Below, in pieces: positions 1 through 16,049 of a stretch of 64,000 bases of DNA. The DNA is taken from NCBI GenBank assembly GCA_028583405.1, contig CM053244.1, positions 1,054,001-1,118,000 of the forward strand. The letters run 5' to 3'. The notes under the pieces were generated by a model, which was given only the letters and a program-made list of their open reading frames with translations, was not told the DNA's origin and ran no database searches. Each line of letters opens with the position of its first letter. Within the stretch, counting starts at the first letter, position 1. Origin of the DNA: Pogonophryne albipinna. Lineage: Eukaryota > Chordata > Actinopteri > Perciformes > Artedidraconidae. The translations under genes were made by a program, and so were the position numbers.

Positions 1-355
1 GGAAATAAATACATAAAGTATGCTCTCAAATTTAAATACCACGCTCTTGAATAAAGATAGGGAATAACCCCCACCCATATAAATACGATGTCCTTTTGTG
101 TTCTGTTGTTTTATGTTCATGTTGTAACCTACTTGCTGCCATGTTGGACAGGTCTCTCTTGAAAAAGAGATCGATGATCTCAATGAGACCATCTGGTTAA
201 ATAAATGTTTAAAACAAAAAAAAGTGTTTAAAAAAAAAAAAAAAAAATTACATTTTTTTTTTTTTTTAGCGCGGTAGATTTTGTCAGTCTCACGACGGTA
301 TTGGGACATTTATTTACCGCGATACCGCGATATTCGGTATATCGTTACATCCCTA
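1..355. mobile_element. hAT-type element, right-end fragment
   Basis: The segment is almost identical to the right part of the complete hAT copy at 46421-47927 and ends with the same terminal motif (atatcgttacatcccta, reading inward as tagggatgtaacgata). Its left part lies outside the window. It carries the same internal cargo as the complete copy: an arm ending in ggaataaccccca, then a stretch with a ggttaaataaa motif followed by A-rich and T-rich tracts. No coding capacity is visible. The match to the intact copy, which has an 8-bp target duplication, makes the hAT assignment firm. Confidence 0.8.
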
Positions 356-1164
356 GTAAGCTATAATTCCTCTTTGCATTAACTTAATTGGGTAGTTGCA
401 GTCACTGATTGGATAGGTGCCCCTTATGACCAATCACAGACAGGCACAAGACTATGGCTTGTATTTTCACAAGATGAGCAAACTATATTATTCAACAAAT
501 ATAGCCTAAAACATATAATCCAGGTAACAAGCAACACACCTGCTGCAGCTGAAGGCAGGAAGGGACGTTGGCCAAAATGGCAGACTATGTGAAGACCTAA
601 ATTGCCAGGCTCAACACTATTTAATTACCAAGGAATGAGTATAGAAGACAACAGTTACTATTGGGTATTCCCTTTATATTAACAAATGTCATTAATTCAG
701 CTGAAACCCCCTGCAGAGTTAAACAGTCTGCAGTAACAAAAGGCAAACGGCTGTATACAGTCTGCAGGACTGTAAACCAACAACTACACTTGTACACTTG
801 TCGCACCTGCAACATATGAATCATACTTTGTAGTACAGGCCTCTGGAGTCTCCAAAAGTTCTGTGGAGCTGGTATAATGAGTAAATAATTATTAATGCTA
901 ATAAAAACAACATTGCCATGTGCTGTTTTTTGTGCACCTGTTATACATGGGTGTGATCGAAACTACTGCACTCAATAAAAGGGTGTCAGCTAACTTCAAG
1001 CCACACATATCTATATGCCACCATCTATAACAATATCTTCCACTTAAGCTGTTGTCCAGAGCATCAGCAGTTTAAAGAGTGCAAGAGGGAAGATTGATAT
1101 ATTTTCTGACCAATTTCTGCCAAATGTAAAATAATGTAATTAAAAAGAACATTGTAAAATGTAC
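356..1164. other. Noncoding 3' flank or last intron of the SET-recombinase gene
   Basis: No convincing exon or mobile element is seen here apart from the phase-compatible candidate terminal exon listed separately at 621-727. The stretch is AT-rich and follows, on the minus strand, the donor site at 1163-1164 of the last well-supported exon. If the gene continues, its remaining 3' exons should be here or to the left of the window, where the hAT fragment at 1-355 intervenes. Confidence 0.5.
621..727 (-). CDS. Candidate terminal exon (weak)
   Basis: On the minus strand a polypyrimidine stretch followed by ctgcag gives an acceptor. The downstream reading frame runs 35 codons to a TAA at 621-623. 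Its phase, needing one base from the previous exon, matches the donor at 1163-1164. The encoded peptide (beginning DCLTLQG) resembles no domain I know and there is no clear polyadenylation signal just downstream. Phase compatibility has a one-in-three chance of being accidental, so this is only a candidate. Confidence 0.2.
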
Positions 1165-1356
1165 CTTTTGAAGTATGTCTTACAGCATGGACTTCAGGCG
1201 ATTCCTGTCCCTCTGCTGTTGGCAATCTGGATCTCTTCAGGTTCTGTGGGAGTTGATTCCCCTCAGTAGGTGTAAGAGTCTCCTCTGCTGTTGGCAATCT
1301 GGATCTCTTCAGGTTCTGTGGGAGTTGATTCCCCTCAGTAGGTGTAAGAGTCTCCT
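1165..1356 (-). CDS. Acidic exon with two 24-residue tandem repeats
   Basis: The acceptor reads aaacccaacag and the donor reads AAAAG/gtacat on the minus strand. The 192-nt exon is phase 1 at both ends, so it can be added or skipped without changing frame. It encodes two adjacent copies of a 24-residue unit (starts EETLTPTEGNQLP, ends RSRLPTA), produced by a perfect or near-perfect 72-bp tandem duplication at about 1215-1358, followed by about 16 other residues. Its position after the recombinase domain suggests a flexible C-terminal linker or tail. No known domain is recognised. Confidence 0.6.
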
Positions 1357-1673
1357 CTGTTGGGTTTAGAAAAATTAAAAGCACTTCATTAACTTTACTG
1401 TAGAAATGCTGACCATAACCAATAATATTGGAGAGGAAATTGATCACACTTGGAAAAGAAAGAACACTTTTTCCCACTTCCATGACTGGTCCTATTGCTG
1501 TGACCCTGACCAAAGGTATATACTGCAATTGTAGAAAACTAAAGTGCTTGTGCAAGACCAAGAGTAAAAGACAGAACAACAAATCCAAAATAAAACAACT
1601 GCTAAACTTTCTTTGTGAATTTTTTATAGACTGAAGTACTTATTTTTTCTACATTAAATTACTCACAACATAC

Positions 1674-1754
1674 CATCAACGGCAGAAGCACAGTTTCCTT
1701 CCTCTATGTTCCCGCTCCCTTCTTCTTCATCATCATCACTACCAATAACTCTTT
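1674..1754 (-). CDS. Short acidic exon of the fusion gene
   Basis: An 81-nt exon, phase 1 at both ends. The acceptor is tctccaacag and the donor is TTGATG/gtatgt. It translates to an acidic, serine-rich peptide (ERVIGSDDDEEEGSGNIEEG and a few more residues) with no stop codon. The frame carries on exactly from the donor after residue 494 of the recombinase reading frame and into the exon at 1165-1356. Acidic linkers of this kind are common next to chromatin or DNA-binding domains, but no specific function can be assigned. Confidence 0.65.
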
Positions 1755-1840
1755 CTGTTGGAGATATACCGAGTACAGGTTAAACATGGGGAAGCAATTA
1801 GAATAATTGAGAAGAAAAACATAATGAACAAATAACATAC

Positions 1841-3927
1841 CATCTGGCCCTATTGTGATTTCATCCAAGTTCTTTCCATGAAACTCTGCTAATCTCCCTT
1901 GCTCAAGTGCCATTAGAATTTTGCTGATCTTGGCAAGTTGAAGCGTCTTCTCCGGTAGTCGATAGAATTCACGATGAATTCTAATATCGTGACCAAGAAA
2001 GTTGGCCAGCTGGTCCATTTCTGTGTCTGTCATGTTCAGCACGGTGGAGAGGGTTGCAGCATGCTTTCTGAGTCTGGTCGATGTCAGTGACTTTGGACAC
2101 TTAGCACCACATGTTTTTGCAAAGCCACGCATGCAGTCTGAACCACGGAAATGTGTCATAGCTGTAGGTCTTGCAAACATATATGCATTGTCTTTTAGAA
2201 CCCCACAATCCTCTCTATACTTCACTAGGAGTTCTAATGCGCACAGCATTTTCGGAGTCAGAAGAATTGGAACTGGTCTGCCTCGCTTTCCCCTGATGAC
2301 AATCCTTGAGAAATGTCTGCACAGTTTTTTTTCCACTTCAGAGAGTGCCCAGTCCACATCCTCGTGGGGATCAGAAGTGTCCCTTGACAGAAATGCAGTC
2401 AGCGGCATGCTTGCTACTTCTCCTTCCCTGCGTCGATTGAAGAGGAAAATCTGTGTTAAACACACCTTTGCCAGTTCCATCCAGGACTTTGTAGAAGGTG
2501 TTCCAGATAGTTCACTGCTGCACTCATCTTGCATCGCACTGAGAAACTGATGCAATTTTTGAACATCCTCAGTGAATGGCATAAGAGTGGGAACGTTCCA
2601 TTTTGATTCAGCAATGTTTCTGAGAGCCGTTGAAGAAATCATCTCGTTCCATTTCTCACTGTGAACTTGTTGAAATTCTGTGGCATTTCTCACAAGTTCA
2701 TGATCGTTAGCTATTAACCCATGAGCTTTCAACAGTTTGCTGACCTTGACCATCGCATTACCAAGTTTGTTTGCAAGGGATGGAATCTGAAATGTTCCAG
2801 TTCCACTATCATAGCCACAAGTGACCTGAACAGCTCTGACCATCTCCAAGTACTTCTTAGGATTAATGAAATCCTCCAGTTTTTTTAGACTGGTGACCCT
2901 TCTGCCATTGTGAATTAACCGTCCCAATTCTCTCATCTTCTCCCTTACATTTTGTTTGTTTTTGTTGGAATTCCCACCTTTGTTCAACAAGTGCTGCCCA
3001 AGATCAGTGATGACATGGTCACTTTTAATGATATTTGTGATGGGATCAGGATTCATAGAACTAATCACTCCCCACAATTGTTTTGAAATCTGTGCAGGCA
3101 CAGGCCCTGTGTATGTGCACAATGACTGGACGCAATTCTTTCCAGGTTTCCGGGAAACCGATTTGGGTTTGAGTTTGCATGTGCGTATGTGTCGCCACAA
3201 GACCTTTCTGGTGAAAAGGCCTTGGCAATATGCGCAATGCATAAACTCATTCCCCTTTGCCTGTTGAGTAGGTCTTTTAAACGGTATTCCCAGACTCCAT
3301 GACAGCAGCATTGTGCGCATAGTTGCCTCTGTTGCGGATGTAATTCAATTGATGTCTTCTCTCCTTTGACCTCTTTGGAAAGCTAAGGGCTTTAGCTACA
3401 TCTACTTTTTCTTCATGGGCTTTTTCTAGATGCCTTGCCATTTTCGCATAAGGCCTACTCCAATAAAGGCAATAGTGTCTCTTGTTGTAGACTCTAATAC
3501 CGTCTTTTTTTTGGGAAGCACCAACAACAATGCTCTGATGCGTGTCCTGACTTGAACATTGTTCTTTTTCTCCACTGTCTCCAAATGTCATCTGGTCGGG
3601 CACTGTGGAATCGCAGGCTGGGACATTCAATGAATCAGCCGGAGACTGCCGTTTCCTTCCTGTTTGATAGCGAGTATCACCATCACTTTCTGTCATGGCA
3701 TCTGTGCAGGGTTCTTCTGCTCCTGGTGGTCCCGCGTCTGGTAGTGTAGTATCACAAAGACCATCAAATAAATCCATCAGAGATGGCCTTTTCTTTGTCA
3801 TTGTGAGGGTGGAATCACTGTCTTCACTTTCTGATGTAGAATCCGGGACAAACTCATCCCCACTCCCAGAGATATCACTGCTGGAATCGTACAGTGCATC
3901 GGGTTCCTCTAGATTTGTGTCCTTTAT
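1841..3927 (-). CDS. Zinc-finger and tyrosine recombinase exon (one frameshift)
   Basis: Single 2.09-kb exon with acceptor tgttcgattttag just upstream and donor CCAGATG/gtatgt at 1840. It opens with an acidic serine-rich stretch, then zinc finger 1 (HYCLYWSRPYAKMARHLEKAH), where the second Cys of the expected CxxC is Trp. A basic segment ending NYAHNAAVMESG follows, where the frame is lost. The next frame resumes at PFKRP and runs about 475 codons to the donor. It contains a C2HC finger (HCAYCQGLF...RHIRTC) and a recombinase domain. Counting from the Met at 3320, candidate catalytic residues are R298 (RREGEV), K345 (RGKRGRPVP), R418 (TRLRKHAAT), H444 (FLGH) and Y453 (REFYRLP). The usual His of HxxR is Thr415. 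The fold is that of phage-integrase/Crypton/DIRS recombinases, which break and rejoin DNA through the Tyr. Which of these subfamilies is closest cannot be settled by eye. Confidence 0.85.
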
Positions 3928-4058
3928 CTAAAATCGAACACAGAAACAGATGTCGTTTAAACAAAACACAATCCAAATAAGAGCACAACATTATGACAAT
4001 ACTGTCTGATATTGAGGGATCCTATAATGTAAATTAAGCAGCTTAAATGAAAACTTAC

Positions 4059-4133
4059 TATAATGCTTTTAGTTCGTCTCAATCGAGGAGAGAGTACAGT
4101 ATTCAAATTGTGCTTCTGGAAAACTGTTCCAAT
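4059..4133 (-). CDS. 25-codon linker exon of the fusion gene
   Basis: A 75-nt phase-0 exon with acceptor attatctacag and donor ATTATA/gtaagt. It encodes a basic peptide (IGTVFQKHNLNTVLSPRLRR followed by TKSII) and joins the triplicated acidic exons to the large recombinase exon without a frame change. No domain is recognised. The basic run near its end could be a nuclear localisation signal, but this is only inference. Confidence 0.6.
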
Positions 4134-4491
4134 CTGTAGATAATGAAAAAATATTTTACAGTTTGCAATTAACAGTTTATAGTTAAAACACTTTTTTTTT
4201 AAGAGTATGAAACTGAATCTTATAACAATAAGGCTGTTGTGAACATATTGTGTGAGGTTTGAAATGTTCCTCAAACAATATCGCTTTATTTGCGATGGAA
4301 CATAAACACCAAAACACCAGTAAGAAATAACTGTTTCTGCTCAATTTGGCACAGCATTTCTTGTTTTATTCCTAATAAATACAACATATATGTGTTCATC
4401 ATCCATTTATCAGCTTGAAGAAGAACAGAGGCAACAGCTAGGGATTCAGAAAGATGCTAAGTATAAAGCTAAGTGGTAAACATGGATGTAC

Positions 4492-4593
4492 CTCTCTGTT
4501 GATGTCGGGTTTTTCTGATGGCCCAGCATTCCTGGTGTCAGCGCTCTCGCACTCAAGTGGACCATCAGGGTTGGAGTCTCTTGTCACAGGCGC
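4492..4593 (-). CDS. Acidic 34-codon exon, repeat copy 3 in transcript order
   Basis: A 102-nt phase-0 exon with acceptor tatattttcag and donor AGAGAG/gtacat. It encodes a 34-residue unit beginning APVTRDSNPDGPLECESADT. It differs from the other two copies at three positions of that unit (LEC for IES, and Glu for Asn before KPD). It sits between the SET domain and the recombinase and probably forms a flexible, negatively charged linker. No known motif is recognised. Confidence 0.7.
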
Positions 4594-5199
4594 CTGAAAA
4601 TATATCATCATAAAAGCATTTTAAAATAGAGAATAAAACCATACAATTGCATGCAATCACTACATATTATAAAACAAGACTAATGCATTTTCTACAAGGA
4701 AACATCTCAATCTAAATGCATGTCAACAAACACCAGACTACAGAGACCCCCCCCCATTAAATACTGTACACTAATGCTACCTTAACCTCGTCATTTCTCA
4801 CACACTGAATACAACCAGCTTAGTGGGGACATTTCACACACCATGTTGTGGTCACTTTTGGGGGCCAAGTGTCTCTAGTTTGTAATCCGCTTAACACACA
4901 CAGTTTCTGCTCAAGATCTGATGTAAGGTGTGTTGTGGGGACGTCGTAGGTATCCCAGAAAAGTGTGATTTTTAATAAAAAGGAATGTCAGTTTAAAGTC
5001 CAAAGTTTGTCCTAAATATTATATTAACATTGGCCTTATAGAGGGAATTGAGAAAACTGCTTGGCAGTACTTATACACAATAGATTTTCATCATAATATA
5101 CTTTCATCATCCATTTATCAGCTTGAAGAAGAACAGAGGCAACAGCTAGGGATTCAGAAAGATGCTAAGTATAAAGCTAAGTGGTAAACATGGATGTAC

Positions 5200-5301
5200 C
5201 TCTCTGTTGATGTCGGGTTTGTTTGATGGCCCAGCATTCCTGGTGTCAGCGCTCTCGCTCTCAATGGGACCATCAGGGTTGGAGTCTCTTGTCACAGGCG
5301 C
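5200..5301 (-). CDS. Acidic 34-codon exon, repeat copy 2
   Basis: A 102-nt phase-0 exon with the same acceptor and donor sequences as its neighbours at 4492 and 5919. The peptide begins APVTRDSNPDGPIESESADT and ends KPDINRE. Because the exon is a multiple of three and symmetric in phase, any number of copies can be spliced in while keeping the downstream recombinase in frame. Confidence 0.7.
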
Positions 5302-5918
5302 CTGAAAATATATCATCATAAAAGCATTTTAAAATATAGCATAAAACCATACAATTGCATGCAATCACTACATATTATAAAACAAGACTAATGCATTTTC
5401 TACAAGGAAACATCTCAATCTAAATGCATGTCAACAAACACCAGACTTCAGAGAGAAAGCCCCGCCCCCCCCCATTAAATACTGTACACTAATGGTACCT
5501 TAACCTCGTCATTTCTCACACACTGAATACAACCAGCTTAGTGGGGACATTTCACACACCATGTTGTGGTCACTTTTGGGGACCAAGTGTCTCTAGTTTG
5601 TAATCCACTTAACATACACAGTTTCTGCTCAAGATCTGATGTAAGGTGTGTTGTGGGGACGTCGTAGGTATCCCAGAAAAGTGTGATTTTTAATAAAAAA
5701 GGAATGACAGTTTAAAGCTCAAAGTGTGTCCTAAATATTATATTAACATTGGCCGTATAGAGGGAATTGAGAAAACTGCTTGGCAGTACTTATACACAAT
5801 AGATTTTCATCATAATATACATTCATCATCCATTTATCAGCTTGAAGAAGAACAGAGGCAACAACTAGTGATTCAGAAAGATGCTTAGTATAAAGCTAAG
5901 TGGTAAACATGGATGTAC

Positions 5919-6020
5919 CTCTCTGTTGATGTCGGGTTTGTTTGATGGCCCAGCATTCCTGGTGTCAACGCTCTCGCTCTCAATGGGACCATCAGGGTTG
6001 GAGTCTCTTGTCACAGGCGC
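5919..6020 (-). CDS. Acidic 34-codon exon, repeat copy 1
   Basis: A 102-nt phase-0 exon, first of the three copies after the SET domain. It differs from the copy at 5200 by one base, giving Val for Ala in the SESVDT segment. Acceptor and donor are intact. Its upstream junction is phase 0, which fits the donor of the SET exon at 6684-6877. Confidence 0.7.
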
Positions 6021-6683
6021 CTGAAAATATATCATCATAAAAGCATTTTAAAATAGAGAATAAAACCATACAATTGCATGCAATCACTACATATTATAAA
6101 ACAAGACTAATGCATTTTCTACAAGGAAACATCTCAATCTAAATGCATGTCAACAAACACCAGACTTCAGAGAGAAAGCCCCCCCCCCCCCATTAAATTC
6201 TGTACACTAATGCTACCGTAACCTCGTCATTTCTCACACACTAAGCTGAATACAACCAGCTTAGTGGGGACATTTCACACACCATGTTGTGGTCACTTTT
6301 GGGGACCAAGTGTCTCTAGTTTGTAATACACTTAACACACACAGTTTCTGCTCAAGATCTGATGTAAGGTGTGTTGTGGGGACGTCGTAGGTATCCCAGA
6401 AAAGTGTGATTTTTAATCAAAAGGAAAGTCAGTTTAAAGCCCAAAGTTTGTCCTAAATATTATATTAACATTGGCCTTAGAGGGAATTGAGAAAACTGCT
6501 TGGCAGTACTCAACACACAGTACTTAACACACAGTTTCTGCTCAATTTTGCACAGCATTTCTTGTTTTATTCCTAATAAATACAACATGTACGTGTTAAA
6601 TGATATTGATTAGATTATTTAAGATCATACATTAACATTAAGGTTTTTCTGAGACATTTTGCAACACTAGTTGTGTCACTTAC

Positions 6684-6877
6684 TTGCACTCTCCATGGGC
6701 AGTCATCACCACCGTAGTCATATGTAATTTCCTCTCCTTTTTTTTATTTCGTCTATGGCAAACAAACATAAATGTGGCTTCCCATCCACATCGACTCTTT
6801 TCATTCTACAGTTGGGCCCAAGGTGGTCGTCGTTGACGAGCCGTCCAAATGACCCATCTTCCCTTGAGGCATCAATA
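6684..6877 (-). CDS. C-terminal half of a KMT5A-like SET domain (frameshifted)
   Basis: The exon follows acceptor tatgcttaag and ends GTGCAA/gtaagt. It encodes IDASREDGSFGRLVNDDHLG, then PNCRMKRVDVDGKPHLCLFA, both typical of a SET core: the GRLxN segment forms part of the S-adenosylmethionine pocket. After an A8 run (6738-6745) the frame is lost. The next frame carries GEEITYDYGGDDCPW, containing the conserved YDYG element, so the domain was complete before a one-base insertion (or two-base loss). The 194-nt length is one base more than phase continuity requires. Homopolymer runs are prone to sequencing error, so this lesion is the least certain of the set. Confidence 0.75.
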
Positions 6878-7439
6878 CTTAAGCATAAGAGGAAAGGGAA
6901 CAAAAATGAACAGTCGTTCATTTGACTTCCTTTAAAAATGGTATGAGTTGAGATATATTTTAGCCTCTGATGCAGTTTAATCAATGTTAGTGCTGGATAT
7001 AACTGTCAAATATCCAACTGATTAAAGCCTTATATACCATTCAGTGCAGTTTAGCATGGGTTTTAGTAATTGTGAAACTACAAATCTTACCTCCATGTCT
7101 TCCCTCGCCACTTAAAAGAAAAAAGGAATCCAGCACATGTCGGATGATAATCAGTGATAAGTAGGGGTGTAACGGTACACGTACCGAAATTATTCGGTAC
7201 GGGCCCTTCGGTTCGGTACACGTGTGTACCGAAGTGTACCGAACGAATATAACGTTAAACGTAAAAAATTGAGAACGTGAACAACTTCTTGGAAGTAACC
7301 TCAGGTGCTGCGTCGCAGCATTCAGAGTAATTTGCTCCCATTGTGTTCAACGCGTCATAGAGCGAGCAAGTCATTTCATTGGACGAGCTGGTCAGAGGGA
7401 TGCGTTCAAATGTAGTCAGTAATTTGAGGAACTGTCGAA

Positions 7440-7700
7440 ATGGCGAACGCAGATAAAGTTGAGCTCGAAAATCCTCCAGCATCATTGAAGTCTCCGGTTT
7501 GGGAACATTTTGGTTTCGCAGTTACGTACAAGGATGACGGACAAAGACAGGTGGAAAAAGCTGTTTGTCGGCATTGTTCAACTAAAATTGGTTACGCGGC
7601 TGGCAATACATCAAACTTACACACTCATTTGAAAAGGCATCACCCGAACGTGAATATCACCGGTACCAAAAGACTGAAGTGCAAACCCAACTCCCACTAG
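7440..7700 (+). CDS. hAT transposase N-terminus with BED zinc finger (truncated)
   Basis: An 86-codon frame starting MANADKVELENPP. Residues about 17-63 form a BED-type finger: SPVWEHFGF, then CRHC about 20 residues later, then the HLKRHH pair. In hAT transposases this finger binds the element's own ends. The frame stops soon after the finger because the central RNase-H-like domain is deleted. It lies about 280 bp inside the left terminus, as expected for a transposase start. Belongs to the ZBED1/Ac-like group by appearance. Confidence 0.85.
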   Translation: MANADKVELENPPASLKSPVWEHFGFAVTYKDDGQRQVEKAVCRHCSTKIGYAAGNTSNLHTHLKRHHPNVNITGTKRLKCKPNSH

Positions 7701-7769
7701 CATTTAAGCCTCCACCACTCGCAACAAGTTCAGACCGAGCCAAAGCTATTACAAACGCCAAATATCCTT

Positions 7770-7911
7770 ATGTTGCCATGTTAGCAAAGTGCTACCTGGC
7801 TGTATCTGCTACCTCTGTCCCTAGAGAGGGTGTTCTCCACAGCAGGAGACATTGTTAGTGCCAGCAGATCTGCCCTTTCAGCAAGCAATGTGGACAAGTT
7901 AATTTTTCTTT
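7770..7911 (+). pseudogene. hAT transposase C-terminal dimerisation remnant
   Basis: One frame reads LAKCYLAVSATSVPREGV, then a shift, then FSTAGDIVSASRSALSASN to a stop at about 7911. This is the conserved hAT C-terminal block (normally SERVFSxAGxIV), whose role is transposase dimerisation. The frame break and the missing catalytic domain make it a non-functional remnant of the protein begun at 7440. Confidence 0.8.
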
Positions 7912-8180
7912 AAAAAAAACATGAAAATACAATGACAAGCAAGTCCTGATGTCAAACTGGCTGCTTAGGTACTAGTACAGTACAGTTCAAATACAGATCA
8001 TTTCAGTTCATCGAAAAGCTGCACCTTAATGTTTATTTTATTATATTTTATATTTATTTGAGTGAATATTCAGTTTAATAATAATTAAAAACCCAAAACT
8101 AATAGTTTATGTTTTGTGAGTACTAGTACAGTAAAGTTAAAATACAGATTATTTTAGTTCATCGAAATGCTGCACCTTAA

Positions 8181-9330
8181 AGGGGGGGTAGGTAAGTTTG
8201 AGAAACCGGCTCGAGATACACTTTTTGTTATATTCCATGGAATGCTCTTAACATCCCGATAGCAATGCATATCTTAAGTGCTTTGACAAAAAATCCATAA
8301 AAAAAATTCATCTGTGGAAGCCGTAGTACTGTAAAAAGTACGACCAATCCGTTTAGCCGGGCCGGCTAAACGGATTGGATTGCCGTCCTGTCTGTCAGCC
8401 TTCCATCTCGTGCACGCACAAATGTATCTCGTGCCCTCATTGGGCGTGCCGTCATTGGGCGTGCATTGCAGCAGTACTTCAATGACTCGCCAGCAACAGG
8501 CGGCCACTTTCACCATGGCAGAGTTAGGTTCAACATCGTCTACTGGTGGCAAAAGAAATAATGTAACGGAGCAAATTAGGAACAAAAACAAAGTGGAAAC
8601 TAGGAGAATTCAAACCAGAGTCAATATCGGAGTTGTTTTTCAACGATGGCGACAACTGATGCAACACACCTATGGGGGTTATTCCCTATCTTTATTCAAG
8701 AGCGTGGTATTTAAATTTGAGAGCATACTTTATGTATTTATTTCCCTCAAACCCTGTCCTCGCACTCAAATAGTGCCTGCTTGCACTTTGCTCTGCTTCT
8801 GCTCAAACTGTACGCTTACACTCAGATATATTGCTGCTTACGGATTTTTTCTGCTCTCAGATTTATTCTCTGCGCGCTCGAAACTTTTGTGCAACAATCC
8901 TGTCAAAATCCCTCAACCAATAGGAGGCCAGGTGTCCTTGCGGGTGCGTTCGTTTTACTTATTACAGCGTCCCGTAAGGGCGGTTACTCTTTGGTTTGTC
9001 TTTGGTGCGATGACAGGGTTTGAGTGAAGGAAATCAATAAAGTATGCTCTCAAATGTAAATACCACGCTCTTGAATAAAGATAGGGAATAACCCCCATAC
9101 ACACCCGAGTTGAAATCTGACGCCGTGGTCGCTCTTTTTCTCTTGGACAGGTTTTGTATGGTTTACAATTCCCCTGAACTATATAGCCAACCTAAGTCAT
9201 GTGCGCGTTCATGTGTGTTGGAGGAGGTGCTCTGTAAGGAAGTCTGAAGGAAGGGGCGGATTCTTTTCGGCTGTGTACTTTCAAATTTTAGTGCACTCGA
9301 GCCGGTTTCTGAAACTTACCTACCCCCCCT
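8181..9330. mobile_element. TTAA-flanked MITE nested in the hAT
   Basis: Inverted termini of about 35 bp (agggggggtaggtaagttt... on each side) are flanked by TTAA at 8177-8180 and 9331-9334. TTAA duplication is typical of piggyBac and Kolobok elements; the family cannot be settled without the transposase. A 16-bp palindrome (tagccgggccggcta) lies near 8356. A second, reverse-oriented copy of this family ends at 19801. It contains a third element at 8671-9099. Confidence 0.85.
8671..9099. mobile_element. Third-level nested MITE with ~85-bp inverted repeats
   Basis: The left arm (tatgggggttattccctatc...) and right arm (...gatagggaataacccccata) are inverted copies over about 85 bp with few differences. 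They are flanked by cacacc on both sides (8665-8670 and 9100-9105), a 6-bp duplication or an imperfect 8-bp one. The middle contains aatcaatagg-like and GC-rich sequence shared with 47310-47580. No coding potential. The superfamily is not identified. Confidence 0.8.
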
Positions 9331-9730
9331 TTAATGTTTATTATATTATATTTTGTATTTATTTGAGTGAATACATTATTCACAGTTTAATTTTTTTTTT
9401 AAATGTTATGTTTTGTGATAATTTTTTCTGCTGTACCGAAAACGTACCGAACCGAACCGTGACCTAAAAACCGAGGTACGTACCGAACCGAAATGTTTGT
9501 GAACCGTTACACCCCTAGTGATAAGGTCCCCTCTGTACTCCAAAACAAAATCTCCTTTGGAAAACTGACCAAGGGCAATTATACCACGTCCTGCAAGACA
9601 ATATATGACATTTTTAATGATGAGTCTGTGGACTATATGTAATTCCAAAATAAATGTGGAGATAAAAAGCGACTGACATTTACATGATTCGATTATTACG
9701 GTTACAAAACATCACAGCATTTCACTATCA

Positions 9731-10287
9731 GCTACAGGTTAGTTTAGCCTGATCGATCCGATTCCATTCAGAAAGCACGCATTTTAAAAGGTTTTTCGCC
9801 TGCCGTCTTGTCTGCACACTAGTCAAAGCATTAATTCATGGTTTTTACTAACCGGTATCAGTATGTAGTTACTTCGGCATCACTTTGAAACATGTATTAC
9901 AATTAAATCACGGTAACATGGAGATAAGCCCCTTAAAAACCATGAATGCATGTTTTTTTCGCATCGCTCTAATCGCTCGAGTTTCACTGTGGCTGTCAGC
10001 TGTGTTTACTCCTGTCATTCAAACAAGACACGAGACAAGGGGGCGTAGTTGTAGTTGGTATCTCCTATGGGAGATACCAACTACAACAAAATGAACATAT
10101 TTGACCGTGATTTAATTGTAATACACGTTTCAAAATGATGCCGAAGTAACTACATACTGATACCGGTTAGTAAAAACCATGAATTAATGCTTTGACAAGT
10201 CTGCAGACAGACGGCAGGCGAAGAACCTTTTAAAATGCGTGTTTTCTGAATGGAGATCGGATCGATCAGACTAAACTAACCTGTAGC
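9731..10287. mobile_element. Foldback MITE with ~195-bp inverted arms
   Basis: Left arm from gctacaggttagttta... and right arm ending ...taaactaacctgtagc are inverted copies over about 195 bp, covering the cggtatcagtatgtagttac and gaattaatgctttgac blocks. A second small palindrome around the centre (ggtatctcctatgggagatacc, 10056-10079) sits in the loop. The element lies in the first coding intron of the SET-recombinase locus. No clear target duplication was found, so the superfamily is open. Confidence 0.8.
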
Positions 10288-10590
10288 GGCTCCGTCCAAA
10301 CTCACAACAACATGATACAGACATAAATAAAGCAGCGACTGTATTCCCCATGACACAGACAGTCTGTGGTTTGTACATGTTTAACTTTTGTCCAGTTTCT
10401 GAACAGATATGAGGAGCTGTGAGCTCTGAGTGTGTGCTAACGGCTGATGTGTTGGGACATGTTGCGCTGTCTGGTGCTGTGACGTTTTGTGAAATGCTGT
10501 AGTGTTTTGTGAAATGCTGTGGTGTCTTGAACTTCAGGGCCATCGTAGATTATGTTATAATGATGAACACCTTATGTAAAATCCTCTTAC

Positions 10591-10699
10591 CTTTCACTGC
10601 ATTGATGTATTTCAGATCTAATTTATTGGTGTTATCAGTCCTTGATTGGATAGTCTTTTGGGCATCCTTAAGGGGACTGACCCTTGGTGGCATTTCCAA
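10591..10699 (-). CDS. First coding exon of the SET-recombinase gene
   Basis: Acceptor tttctctgcag and donor GTGAAAG/gtaaga bound a 109-nt exon. The frame contains Met at 10691-10693 followed by PPRVSPLKDAQKTIQSRTDN and ends ...YINAVKG. The last Gly is completed by the next exon, which begins GRGII, giving the KGRG start of the SET domain. The Met shown is the first in frame after the acceptor and is taken as the start, but an upstream coding exon cannot be excluded. Confidence 0.6.
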
Positions 10700-11312
10700 C
10701 TGCAGAGAAAGGTAGCAAAAATTAGATGGCTTTTTTCTTTAATTCTTGTTCATCACTCCAAACTGTGCTAGCTGCTAAATCATATCACACACCTAAGCAC
10801 CATGCAAATACACTTGAACAGCTAGCCTATGCCCAGACTCTCTCACAACTTTACATCACAAACCATCACTTTAATTTTAGCATGATATTTGATCATTTGA
10901 ATGAATCAAGCCTGAGCCCTGAAGAAAATAAATCTGCTTGAGTAAATACGATTTGGAATCATAGTGTAGCATAGCATGCGTGGTGGGGGAGGGGCAGAGA
11001 CATGTGCGTCAGTATTTTTGCTAGCAGTCTGAAGGCAGTTGTAAACCAAATTAATGAACTTTTATAGTCTAAATAATGAATTGTATTACACTGGCTAAAT
11101 ATATTGTTACTTACAATAAATATATAGAGCCATTCCTTTAGAAAACGTGATGAAAACCAGCGTGGACTTGAAATGCTAACTGTGACATGTCCACGTGTGG
11201 CATGGAACGTACCATTTTAACGTTTACAACTTAATTTTAAATATAGTTTATAATTGATAAATAATGCCTGATATCATATGAAACTAGTATGGTAATTAAA
11301 CGTCATACTTAC

Positions 11313-11400
11313 TGAACACACAGCTCGCTCAACTCCTTTAAATGCAGTCTGTCCTCATTAGCGCTTCAACTATCTGCACGTCTGGACGCAGCGTGCAGTC
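11313..11400 (-). other. Possible 5' untranslated exon and promoter side
   Basis: A consensus donor (GTGTTCA/gtaagtatg) lies at 11307-11312 on the minus strand, downstream of a moderately CpG-rich stretch at about 11330-11410. This would suit a first noncoding exon spliced to the acceptor at 10700. No TATA box or transcription evidence is visible, and the 5' limit is a guess. Confidence 0.25.
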
Positions 11401-11577
11401 AAGCTAGGTGGGAGGAATCTGAGTTAACTTCCTGTGCACTTTCAAGTTAAAACCGGAAACCACATTTACACACAGGGACCTTTGCTTTTTTCAGTGTAAA
11501 ATTCATACCAGGGTACAGACTAGGGGGCCTGCGAGTGGAGGTTGATATGTGAAGCTCATTAGCTAGTCAACATGTAT

Positions 11578-11678
11578 CTAGCAAATGTTTAGCAAAATAT
11601 TAGAAGTGAGGCTACTAGACTAACGTTAGGTCTACTGTAATAGCCTCACTTTTAATATTTTGCAAAACATTAGCTAGC
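11578..11678. repeat. Short inverted repeat (~37-bp arms)
   Basis: The arm ctagcaaatgtttagcaaaa... at 11578-11614 is repeated inverted at 11641-11678 with a few mismatches, leaving a 26-bp loop. It could be a small MITE core or a chance foldback. Flanking duplications are not apparent. Confidence 0.6.
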
Positions 11679-11689
11679 ACTAGTGTTTT

Positions 11690-12415
11690 ACAGTTGCTAG
11701 CAGATTATTGGGATTTTATGCTAGATAGACAGGCATTGTTTTGATATAATAAATTAAGCATTATTGTTAGTTAAGCATGTCAGCCTGCAGCCCCACTTCT
11801 TGTCTCTCTCTAACTCATTGTAGATGGCTGCACTAAAGAAAAGGGCACAGAGAGTAAACCAGTTCTAAGATGTTTAAAAGTTCATTAAACATAATATATG
11901 CTTAAATGCATTTCAAAGAAGTTGTGTTGGAGTTTGTGTTATTCTACATTTTGACACCAAGAGTCCTTGCGCTGCAGCCAGAAAAAGTTGTCCGCACTCT
12001 CGGGAGAATATCTCCGCAACGGAGCGAGCTTAAATGTCACGTTAAAGAGCAACTTGCAGGTTTTTTTTTTTACTACATTTCTGCTTAACCTTGCCTTAAA
12101 ATTACAATTAAAAAAGTTAATGCAGGATTTGATATGTTTTACAAGACATAAGGGCAGGAATTCAGAGGGAAAGGAGCCGTAGCTCTGCTACTAAAAACTG
12201 CTTTTTTTTTACGTCAAACGCGTCATATTACGTCACATGGGGGAGCAACTTTCTCGGACTCCTTCTCTGCTCAATCCGCGGTAGTAGTTTGTAGTTGGTT
12301 TGAGCGGTTGTGATTTAGTGAGCTGGTATTTTTTCGGTAATTTTACATTGCATTTCACCATTTGTAATCATGGTGAGCTGAGTTTGTGCAGGTTGCCCAC
12401 CTCACTATCCATTAG
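11690..12415. other. Noncoding stretch, no recognised feature
   Basis: Mixed AT-rich sequence with T-rich runs near 12060 and 12200. Open frames here are short and show no family resemblance. The right edge meets the 3' end of the L2-like LINE. Confidence 0.4.
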
Positions 12416-14195
12416 ACCAATACTATCGCCAGGTAGGTTCACACATACGAGGAATTTGACTTGATGTCGTGGTGCAGACATCAAATATAAAACAAAGAAT
12501 CTCCATATAAAACAAAAATCTAATATAAACCGTATAGTACAGTAATTTACAGAGAAATAGATTGCAATTATAGAATGAATTATAGAAAATAAACTATGAA
12601 ATATGAAATAAAAATATGTGCAGTAAGCAGTATTTGAACATTGTGTGCATTCATGTAATGCATAGAGTCTGCGTTGTGGCTGAGGTAAAGTGTCAGTGGG
12701 GGGGCCGGGCCTTGTTTAAGAGGCCGGTAGCGGAGGGGAAGAAACTGTTCAGGTGGTTAGAGGTTCTGGTCCTGATGGAGCGCAGCCTCCTGCCAGAGGG
12801 GAGGGGGATGAACAGCTTGTATCCAGGGTGGGAGGGGTCGGCCACTATCTTCCCTGCCGCCTCAGGGTTCTGGAGGCGTGCAGGTCGTGGAGGGATTGCA
12901 GATTGCAGCCGATCACCCTCTCTGCAGAGCGGATGACACGCTGCAGCCGGCCCTTATCCTTGGCTGTGGCTGCAGCGTACCAGATGGTGATGGAGGAGGT
13001 GAGGATGGACTCCATGATGGAGGTGTAAAAGTTCACCATCATCGTCTTTGACAGCTTGAATTTCTTCAGCTGCCTCAGGAAGAACATCCTCTGCTGTGCT
13101 TTTTTGATGAGGGATGTTCTGCTCCCATTTGAGGTCTGATGATGGTGCCCAGGAAGCGGAATGACTCCGCAGCAGTTAGTGGGGAGTCACACAGAGTGAT
13201 GGCAATCACTCAATGGGCTGCGTTCTTCCTGAAGTCCACGACCATCTCCACTGTCTTGAGAGCATTGAGCTCCAGGTGGTTTTCCCCACACCAGGTCACC
13301 AGATGGTCCATCTCCCACCTGTAGGCAGACCCCCCCCCCCCCCCCCACCCCACCAGAGATGAGTCCGATGAGGGTGGTGTCGTCTGTGAACTTCAGGAGC
13401 TTGACAGACTGGTGACTGGAGGTGCAGCTGTTGGTATACAGGGAGAAGAGCAGAGGTGAAAGAACGCAGCATTGAGGGGAACCGGTGCTGATGGTCTAGG
13501 GGTCAGAGACGTGTTTCCCCAGCCTCACGTGCTGCTTCCTGTCAGACAGGAAGTCTGTGATCCACCTGTAGGTGGAGTTGGGCATGTGCAGCTGAGAGCT
13601 TGTCCTGCAGCAGAGCCGGGATGATGGTGTTGAAGGCGGAGCTGAAGACCACAAACAGGATCCTGGCGTAGGTTCCTGCTGTGTCCAGGTGCTGGAGGAG
13701 GAAGTGAAGGGATATGTTGACAGCGTCGTCCACAGATCTGTTAGCTCTGTAGGTGAACTGCAGGGGGTCCAGGAGGGGGTCTGTGATGGATTTTAGGTGG
13801 GACAGGACAAGGCGCTCAAAGGACTTCATAACCACAGAGGTTAGGGCGACGGGTCTGTCGTCGTTTAATCCTGTGATCCTTGTTTTCCTGGGAACCGGGA
13901 TGATGGTGGAGGTTTTGAAGCATGATGGGACATGGCATGTCTCCAGTGAGGTGTTGAAGATGTCTGTAAACACCAGAGACAGCTGAGCTTCAGGGTGGAG
14001 GGGGAGACATTATCAGGGCCAGCCGCTTTTCTGCTATTGAGTTTTCTAAAAAGTCTGTTTACATCCCTTTCATTGATTGAGAGAGAATTTGATGTGTCGC
14101 GGGAGGTCAGTGGTGTGGAAGAGTGGGACACTGAGACCCCATTTACAAAGGAACGTTTGCGTTTATGCACCGTATGCGTTTTCAAAAAAGTATTC
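12416..14195 (-). pseudogene. L2-like LINE reverse transcriptase, 5'-truncated and decayed
   Basis: Minus-strand fragments appear in the order expected of a non-LTR reverse transcriptase. They are NERDVNRLFRKLNSRKAAGP (about 14100-14030), [20 protein letters not shown] (about 13860), the FTDDTT box that replaces the usual F/YADD catalytic motif (about 13390), TVEMVVDFRKN (about 13240), MFFLRQLKKFKL (about 13080) and a C-terminal PSGRRLRSIRTRTSNHLNSF block (about 12790). The catalytic aspartates survive but frameshifts and stops separate the blocks and the endonuclease is missing. The order, and the last block typical of the L2/CR1 group, support the assignment. Its 3' tail (ggaatttgacttgatgtcgt region) ends at about 12416. 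Not functional. Confidence 0.85.
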
Positions 14196-14379
14196 TGTTC
14201 ACTTGCATTAACACTTGGTTAGCTGCCGATAGGTGGAAGTCTAGTACAGAATATCTGCCACTGATCATCTTATTTGGTTGATCACCACTGCAGGATTCTG
14301 TATTTCTGGTTGACGTACTGTTGACCGTCTACATATACAGCTTGCCTTGTAGGCTGCACGCTTTACAGTATATGTGTAT

Positions 14380-14510
14380 GGGAGGCTGTGGTGCAGTGGG
14401 ATAGTGCGCTGATCTTCGGATCATGATTTGGGGATTGCCCACAGTATTGAATGCATGTAAGTTGCTTCAGATGAAAGCGTCTAATAAGTGACATGTAATG
14501 TAATATGGAA
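14380..14510 (+). mobile_element. tRNA-derived SINE with L2-type tail
   Basis: The head (ggctgtggtgcagtgggata, then gcgctgatcttcggatc) looks like a tRNA A-box region, and the following gggattgccc is a decayed B box. The 3' part ends gttgcttcagatgaaagcgt then a simple tgtaatgtaat tail, the form shared by fish SINEs that borrow an L2 LINE 3' end. A short, single, degenerate copy. Confidence 0.65.
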
Positions 14511-14644
14511 TGTAAACAATACATTGTTTTCATTATAATACTGTCAGTACTGCACATCCCTCTGAATTCTGCACATTGCACATTGAAAATGCACATATTT
14601 TATTCCAATTATTCGATGTAAATATTTCTACCAAAAGTAAAAGT

Positions 14645-14735
14645 AGTCATTCAGAATCAGAATATTGCCAAGTAGGTTAACACAGACAAGGAATTTGTGT
14701 TGGTGTTATGGTGCATACATACACAATTAATAACT
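14645..14735 (-). mobile_element. LINE 3'-end fragment
   Basis: The sequence gccaagtaggttaacacaga and ggaatttgtgttggtgttat matches the 3' end of the L2-like LINE at 12416-12480 with several differences. It is therefore an independent, severely truncated insertion of the same or a sister family on the minus strand. Confidence 0.65.
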
Positions 14736-14744
14736 ATAATATAT

Positions 14745-14880
14745 AATTTGTTGCTAATACTTTTGTACTTTTACTTGAGCAACATTTGCAATGCAGTACT
14801 TTTACTTGTAACAGAGTATTTCTACACTCTGGTACTTCTACTTGTAGTACAAGATTTTGAGTACTTCTTCCTCCTCTGGT
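14745..14880. mobile_element. hAT-MITE-like fragment (acttttactt repeats)
   Basis: Repeated acttttacttg, gtacttctacttg and gagtacttctt motifs are typical of the common fish hAT MITE whose larger fragment is at 36972-37460. No ends are preserved. Confidence 0.5.
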
Positions 14881-16049
14881 AGCCATGCTAGGAGAGCTAA
14901 GCAGTTGAGCTAATCTAGTTAAACAATAACTTTTGCCAGGATAACCACTGTATCATGTGGAAGGTCTCATTGATAGTGGATTTCACTCTGCAGCACTTGT
15001 GGCGACGCAAACACTGACCCTTTTGCTTTGAGCCATTTGTGCCTTCCACATATGCTGCCAGTAAAATGCCTACACGGGAATGTCCAGATTATTGTCAAGA
15101 ATGACATAAATGTACCCTCCCAATGGCTAAATGGCAGTCTTTAATATATATATATATACACTTTATATGTATCATGAAGTCTATTTATTAATTCGATCGA
15201 TTAAAATATTGGAAATGCTTCTCATACGGAAATACTGCTATTTGTGATTTGATTGAGACTAATTAATCACACAACATGTATTTTATAAAATACATTTTAA
15301 TAGCTTGATAGTCCTAATAAATACACAAACTTAAACATAAGATATAAAGTACAAATGAATGGATTACTAAACTACAATGTGAATTAGTTACACTAGTAGT
15401 TATCAACTTGTTATTAAACAAACTATGACTATAACAAATAAATAAACAAGATAAGAATACTTACATTGCAGTTAGATTAGCTCCTTTTTCATTTCTCAGC
15501 TCTTTAGCTCGACACATGCATTAAAACCACTTTAACACAAAAAACGTCATATACTCCTACAATCCTTCCTATTGGGGACCAGGAAGTGGGTGGAGCTAAC
15601 CATATATGGAATATGTGTGTGTGAGGAGCGGACCTGCAATTGCTTGGTCCATCCTCTTGAGGCTCCACTGAGCACATGTTCACACACACACACCCACTGA
15701 AAAACATGCCATTTGGGACAAAGCTAAAAACTTCACAGGCACCTTTAGAATGAATCTTCCAAACATTTAAAATGGTTTCCCCTTTGGGGACCTACTTTTT
15801 TGTCCCCAAAGCGTCAGAGGTCCCCATGACGTGACTGTGTAAACAGATTGATGTCCCCATAAAGTAATGTTTACCAGAACACACACACACACACACACAC
15901 ACACTCCCTTGTGTCTGGACGCTGGCGTTGTGCCCCACACACACTCTTTAAATCTGCTCTGTTACTGTTCAAGTTTGTTTGTTTGTAAATGTTAAAAAAA
16001 AGGATGGAAAACATTTTCACATACATTTTGATACCTTACAATACATATT

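Follow-up and report, generated by a model that had tools for sequence, protein, structure and literature searches.

A KMT5A-like SET domain joined to a Crypton-like tyrosine recombinase in ray-finned fishes, traced from a decayed copy in Pogonophryne albipinna

In this work, we followed up a chain of minus-strand exons in a 64,000-nucleotide stretch of Pogonophryne albipinna DNA (contig CM053244.1, positions 1,054,001 to 1,118,000; hereafter the window), in which a SET domain is joined to a tyrosine recombinase. Our preferred reading, to which we give a probability of roughly 0.7, is that ray-finned fishes harbour a mobile, Crypton-like tyrosine-recombinase element which long ago captured a SET domain of KMT5A type, and that one of its dead copies lies in the window. 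An earlier note, made from the letters of the window, had proposed an independent fusion of methyltransferase and recombinase; this holds at the level of the family, which combines a KMT5A-type SET domain and a tyrosine recombinase in a fish-wide domain order, and is weaker for the decayed window copy itself.

The window copy comprises ten exons, A to H with D present three times, within 10693-1165, and each of its nine introns starts with GT and ends with AG. When five relatives were compared with the window by tblastn, exons A, B and C were matched by the four that carry SET (P0005, P0007, P0009 and P0020), exon D by P0001 alone, exon F by all five, exon G by P0001 and P0005, and exon H by P0001, P0007 and P0009, with the matches of exons A-D and F-H in collinear order. 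Exon E is too short to have given a tblastn match with the five relatives, and is placed by its splice sites, its phase and an RLRRTKS motif in relatives. Because the introns are GT/AG and the matches collinear, the chain is no chance string of open frames. The same introns and matches bear out the consecutive exons with matched splice sites and codon phase described in the earlier note, whose junctions at 6684, 5919 and 3927 proved exact and whose four SET motifs (KGRG, KGDF, GRLVN and YDYG) are all found in the window copy. The exons are as follows:

10591-10693, minus strand: exon A, ATG and N-terminal part before SET (MPPRVSPLKDA...), matched in tblastn by P0005, P0007, P0009 and P0020, with a GT donor
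9518-9590, minus strand: exon B, 5' part, start of SET (KGRG..KGDF..EYRGDLI)
7091-7153, minus strand: exon B, 3' part, SET (YHPTC..WRGKTW)
6684-6877, minus strand: exon C, end of SET (IDASREDGSFGRLVNDD..YDYG), matched to Pfam SET at 8.3e-4, which misses the Pfam cut-off; its frame shifts in an A-run near 6740
5919-6020, minus strand: exon D1, linker unit of 34 amino acids
5200-5301, minus strand: exon D2, tandem copy of D1 at a spacing of 719 bp
4492-4593, minus strand: exon D3, a further tandem copy, spaced 708 bp from D2
4059-4133, minus strand: exon E, ending ..LSPRLRRTKSII, with GT/AG sites, phase and an RLRRTKS counterpart in relatives
1841-3927, minus strand: exon F, with an acidic region, a pair of zinc-finger-like motifs, a helical region and the catalytic domain of the tyrosine recombinase; its frame shifts at about 3287
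1674-1754, minus strand: exon G, acidic tail, matched in tblastn by P0001 and P0005
1165-1356, minus strand: exon H, in which 72 bp are duplicated exactly in tandem (1210-1353)

A search with the joined exons for the same domain order in fishes, as the earlier note had suggested, returned 410 protein matches, and searches with the recombinase part of an Anguilla member and with a frog member returned 1,116 and 872; the database was clustered at 90%, and the best 120 matches of each search were listed. Continuous proteins running from SET through a linker to the recombinase, in the same domain order, are predicted in many fish genomes. SET was matched in 58 of the 208 listed proteins (isoforms included), and its motif occurs in 52 of the 76 proteins that reach 900 residues or more. 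Among the matches listed, with unnamed proteins left aside, the names are those of one frog, Pseudophryne corroboree, and of ray-finned fishes that range from the reedfish Erpetoichthys to percomorphs. The frog protein (P0082), the only tetrapod name among the matches listed, lies on an 847-Mb contig, and its recombinase is 86.6% identical to piranha copies; horizontal transfer into this frog, suggested by that identity and by the lone tetrapod name, receives no support from the approximately unbiased (AU) test.

The recombinase is assigned to the tyrosine recombinase superfamily from its catalytic residues and modelled fold. Numbered along the minus-strand frame at 1848-3344 of the window, the catalytic residues are R306, K353, R426, H452 and Y461, in the order expected of tyrosine recombinases; these correspond to the candidates previously numbered R298, K345, R418, H444 and Y453. 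They are conserved in 207/207, 200/205, 203/204, 202/203 and 183/201 rows, respectively, and the full R-K-R-H-Y set is complete in 178 of 208, while the first box-II residue is T, not H, in 197 of 204. For two predicted structures, XerH, XerD, XerA, Cre and topoisomerase IB head the lists of fold matches, at Foldseek E values not below 0.005 and with low model confidence around the catalytic tyrosine. By sequence, the recombinase gave no convincing match in Pfam, PHROGs or NCBIfam and no match against PDB; neither DUF3504 nor Phage_integrase is among the 25 families listed of 33, and two scans of viral contigs found no relatives. The pattern of the first zinc finger is present in 162 of 215 proteins. 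For the second, a looser pattern recovers 150 of 215, the pattern first tried having recovered one. A conserved C-terminal motif lies beyond the recombinase in 64 of the 215, many of the rest being partial.

Among SET classes, that of the family is closest to KMT5A (SET8, PR-Set7), the histone H4K20 methyltransferase. We compared the SET domain of the relative P0007, rather than the broken SET of the window, with solved structures, and found KMT5A/SET8 as best match (3.6e-29), followed by HRX/KMT2A (9.5e-17); the likeness to KMT5A covers the SET domain only. Hardly any SET row departs from E-Y-x-G, from Y-D-Y-G or from the Asn of the cofactor motif. In KMT5A the cofactor motif reads N-H-S, whereas most fish rows have N-D-D: all 55 rows begin N-D, and the next residue is D in 45, E in 7 and C in 3. 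Since PRDM-type SET domains are also without the cofactor-motif His, N-D-D need not abolish SET activity.

Within the family, SET and recombinase share joint descent. Across 39 two-domain rows the distances of the two domains are correlated (r = 0.915, reached by none of 2,000 permutations), with nearly equal means (SET 0.284, recombinase 0.297); these rows are what remained of the 58 with SET once 11 named isoform ids had been set aside, together with rows in which SET covered fewer than 135 columns or the recombinase no more than 350. Where SET is retained, it is not decaying as a passenger would, copies without SET lying outside this sample. The recombinase tree was built from 89 rows, namely picked species-named proteins with more than 300 recombinase columns together with the window copy. 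SET is found on both sides of its deepest fork, in 6 of 25 and 32 of 64 rows, and therefore the fusion predates that fork in the midpoint-rooted tree.

For evidence of mobility, we compared 20 same-species pairs from 16 species, hand-chosen from the listed matches and lying on contigs of unequal length. In eight of them the two recombinases share an identity of 99% or more (Pygocentrus compared over 239 columns); the other 12 pairs are 49.5-93.3% identical. Both rows carry SET in the near-identical pairs of Brienomyrus, Pygocentrus, Chanodichthys and Rhinichthys, where SET is 99.4-100% identical, the Chanodichthys value covering 41 columns only. A SET match is missing from one row of the near-identical pairs in Carassius, Metynnis and Pagrus, and from both rows in Xyrichtys. 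Such pairs suggest dispersal, often of the whole fusion.

Several observations qualify the mobile-element reading, and some of them concern the window copy itself, which is a broken, decayed relic of the gene family and not an open gene. Exon B, the first SET exon, is split by a hAT element of 2,356 bp at 7162-9517, and tblastn finds about 10 residues of relatives missing at the insertion spot. The features of the insertion are:

7162-9517: hAT element, with perfect 14-bp terminal inverted repeats TAGGGGTGTAACGG at both ends and a BED finger
7428-7697, plus strand: BED-finger reading frame in the hAT element (zf-BED 1.9e-11)
9518-9525: 8-bp target duplication CTTATCAC, copy 1, flanking the hAT element
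7154-7161: 8-bp target duplication CTTATCAC, copy 2, flanking the hAT element

The frame changes twice along the chain: in exon C within the A-run, so that YDYG lies in another frame than GRLVN, and in exon F just before the recombinase. The first zinc finger reads C-L-Y-W, with Trp in place of the second Cys, against C-L-Y-C in relatives. The C-terminal exon of relatives was not found in the window by tblastn, so the gene either runs beyond the window edge or is truncated. In the recombinase tree the window copy clusters with Gymnodraco and Pseudochaenichthys, with a top identity of 98% over 405 columns. Its four nearest rows belong to six listed proteins known to be notothenioid (P0001, P0004, P0011, P0017, P0056 and P0176), and none of the six has a SET match. 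Since none does, the SET half may generally have been lost or have decayed in the notothenioid lineage, or it may be left out of transcripts there.

Beyond the window copy, haplotypes, polyploidy or segmental duplication may also be sources of near-identical pairs, and the carp clade supplies a further counterweight. Eleven listed cyprinid rows (9 gene models) have a SET match, one of them over 78 columns only, and none of the 11 has the catalytic tyrosine, its position being Cys, Phe or deleted. Two are named rnf214 (Labeo and Puntigrus), and SET matches with long reading frames also occur in Sinocyclocheilus, Cyprinus and Carassius; eight of the 11 form a supported clade in the recombinase tree, and P0034, P0036, P0037 and P0043 (Sinocyclocheilus, Cyprinus, Carassius) share an extension of about 95 residues before SET. 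This clade is probably a domesticated host gene in which recombination chemistry was lost and SET retained. Constraint on SET is nevertheless unproven in the clade, because three of the 11 rows are changed at usually conserved positions (GHG in P0034, YQYG in P0039 and YDYR in P0071). The gene setdm, a SET gene specific to males that lies on microchromosomes of gibel carp and is cited in two papers (PMC9945428, PMC8448357), might belong to the family, though we do not count it as a member.

The earlier note had offered two alternatives, a domesticated gene or a mobile element, and the data contain evidence for both, in the probably domesticated carp descendant and in near-identical copies that appear dispersed. 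If domestication is extended to the whole family, a KMT5A-like gene would have captured a recombinase in a single ancient event, spread by ordinary duplication of genes and chromosomes and been kept for a chromatin function. The carp rows, with SET and long reading frames and without the tyrosine, fit such a history, as does a SET domain as conserved as the recombinase; against it stand nearly identical copies placed on separate contigs, as found in several unrelated lineages, as many as 1,116 recombinase matches in a clustered database, divergent copies side by side within species in 12 of the 20 pairs, a catalytic tyrosine kept in most rows and, in the carps themselves, the altered SET positions. 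On balance we regard it as unlikely. Far less probable still is that two unrelated neighbours, a KMT5A-like gene and a recombinase element, lie in the same orientation by chance. The frame shifts that interrupt the window copy and the six notothenioid proteins without SET, whose transcripts may begin after the SET exons, would agree with two genes, but continuous SET-linker-recombinase proteins are predicted in many fish genomes, the distances of the two domains are correlated and GT/AG sites are present at every junction.

The mobile-element reading has its nearest counterpart in the Crypton DNA transposons (Kojima and Jurka 2011, PMC3212892), which are multicopy, use the R..R..H..Y chemistry of tyrosine recombinases, as does the fish family, and have also yielded host genes without the tyrosine, as in the carp clade. 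Animal Cryptons (CryptonA/I) are described in that paper without a C-terminal domain, whereas the fish family has a C-terminal extension; it further differs from Cryptons in its two zinc-finger-like motifs, its several introns and its SET domain, and the word methyltransferase is absent from the paper. The host genes that carry DUF3504 (ZMYM2-4, QRICH1, KCTD1, KIAA1958) derive from Cryptons according to the same paper (PMC3212892). Like the carp clade, they are recombinase-derived and have lost the catalytic tyrosine, in contrast to the window copy with Y461 and to most fish copies; among the 25 listed families they have no sequence match to the fish family. The family could also be a fish Crypton that is already catalogued (e.g. 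CryptonV in Repbase/Dfam), the SET exons being a known, if unpublished, part of its consensus. This would be compatible with our preferred reading; Cryptons account for 0.9% of the zebrafish genome (PMC9341512) and CryptonV exists in Repbase (PMC8869645, PMC5753468). Among the open-access papers listed by our searches we found no description of a fusion of SET with a tyrosine recombinase or of a SET domain linked to a Crypton, and we consider a prior catalogue entry somewhat unlikely. The fish family appears Crypton-like by chemistry, and we do not claim membership in CryptonA or CryptonI. The reading frames between 1 and 11 kb showed no sign of a reverse transcriptase of the DIRS/Ngaro kind, although no systematic scan was made there, and no paired terminal repeats bracket the gene in 1-15000.

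SETMAR, a primate fusion of a lysine methyltransferase SET domain with a mariner (DDE) transposase, likewise joins a lysine methyltransferase domain to a mobile-element enzyme. The fish family differs from it in its SET class, which is KMT5A-like, in its enzyme, a tyrosine recombinase where SETMAR has a DDE transposase, and in that the fusion itself is multicopy across many fish orders. Judged by these domains, the fish fusion is independent of SETMAR.

If the mobile-element reading is right, a living copy would make one spliced SET-recombinase protein, whose zinc fingers and helical region would bind element DNA and whose recombinase would cut and rejoin that DNA through Y461, probably by way of a circular intermediate as proposed for Cryptons. 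SET would methylate a lysine of the chromatin close to the element or to its target, and this methylation could open the target, shield the element from silencing or limit the element's own copies; some copies, as in the carp clade, would have turned into host genes with the tyrosine lost and SET retained. Taken together, this would make the family a vertebrate DNA transposon with its own chromatin-modifying SET domain, whose mark steers integration or shields from silencing, and whose fusion came to serve carps as a host chromatin gene, a tentative proposal that we give distinctly less than even odds. If true, a eukaryotic DNA transposon encodes a domain of histone-methyltransferase type that was long retained and spread through ray-finned fishes, which would provide a natural setting in which to study whether transposons directly manipulate the chromatin of their hosts and would give context to SET-bearing fish models now listed as uncharacterized. 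The carp copies, with SET kept and the recombinase tyrosine lost, would provide a paired test of each half after domestication.

Between the two domains, the linker is repetitive. In the window, exon D is triplicated in tandem together with its intron (4492-6020), two units being identical at 691 of 708 aligned bases. A stretch after SET with a period of 30-38 residues and a self-identity of at least one half occurs in 28 of 52 SET-motif proteins, a count weakened by several of the other 24 in which the linker end was not located, and the medaka protein P0035 has 15 copies of its linker unit at the same place as the exon D array. As the units are similar within one protein and unlike between species in the proteins compared, the linker seems to undergo rapid homogenisation and replacement.

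Two proteins carry further precomputed Pfam domains, a chromodomain in P0058 (Nerophis) and THAP in P0116 (Epinephelus), which are perhaps additional captures or perhaps gene-model joins. Apart from the exon D array, the exon H duplication and the hAT element, the repeats found in 1-15000 of the window are other inserted ones. The hAT element looks non-autonomous, with a BED-finger remnant and smaller repeats inside, and a 73-bp stretch at 1-73 that recurs within it is probably another repeat. Inside the intron between exons A and B, nested long inverted repeats lie at 9705-10529, among them one with 111-nt arms (95%), resembling a miniature inverted-repeat transposable element (MITE) or a foldback element, and a reverse-transcriptase fragment lies on the minus strand at 13542-14009 (RVT_1, 2e-7).

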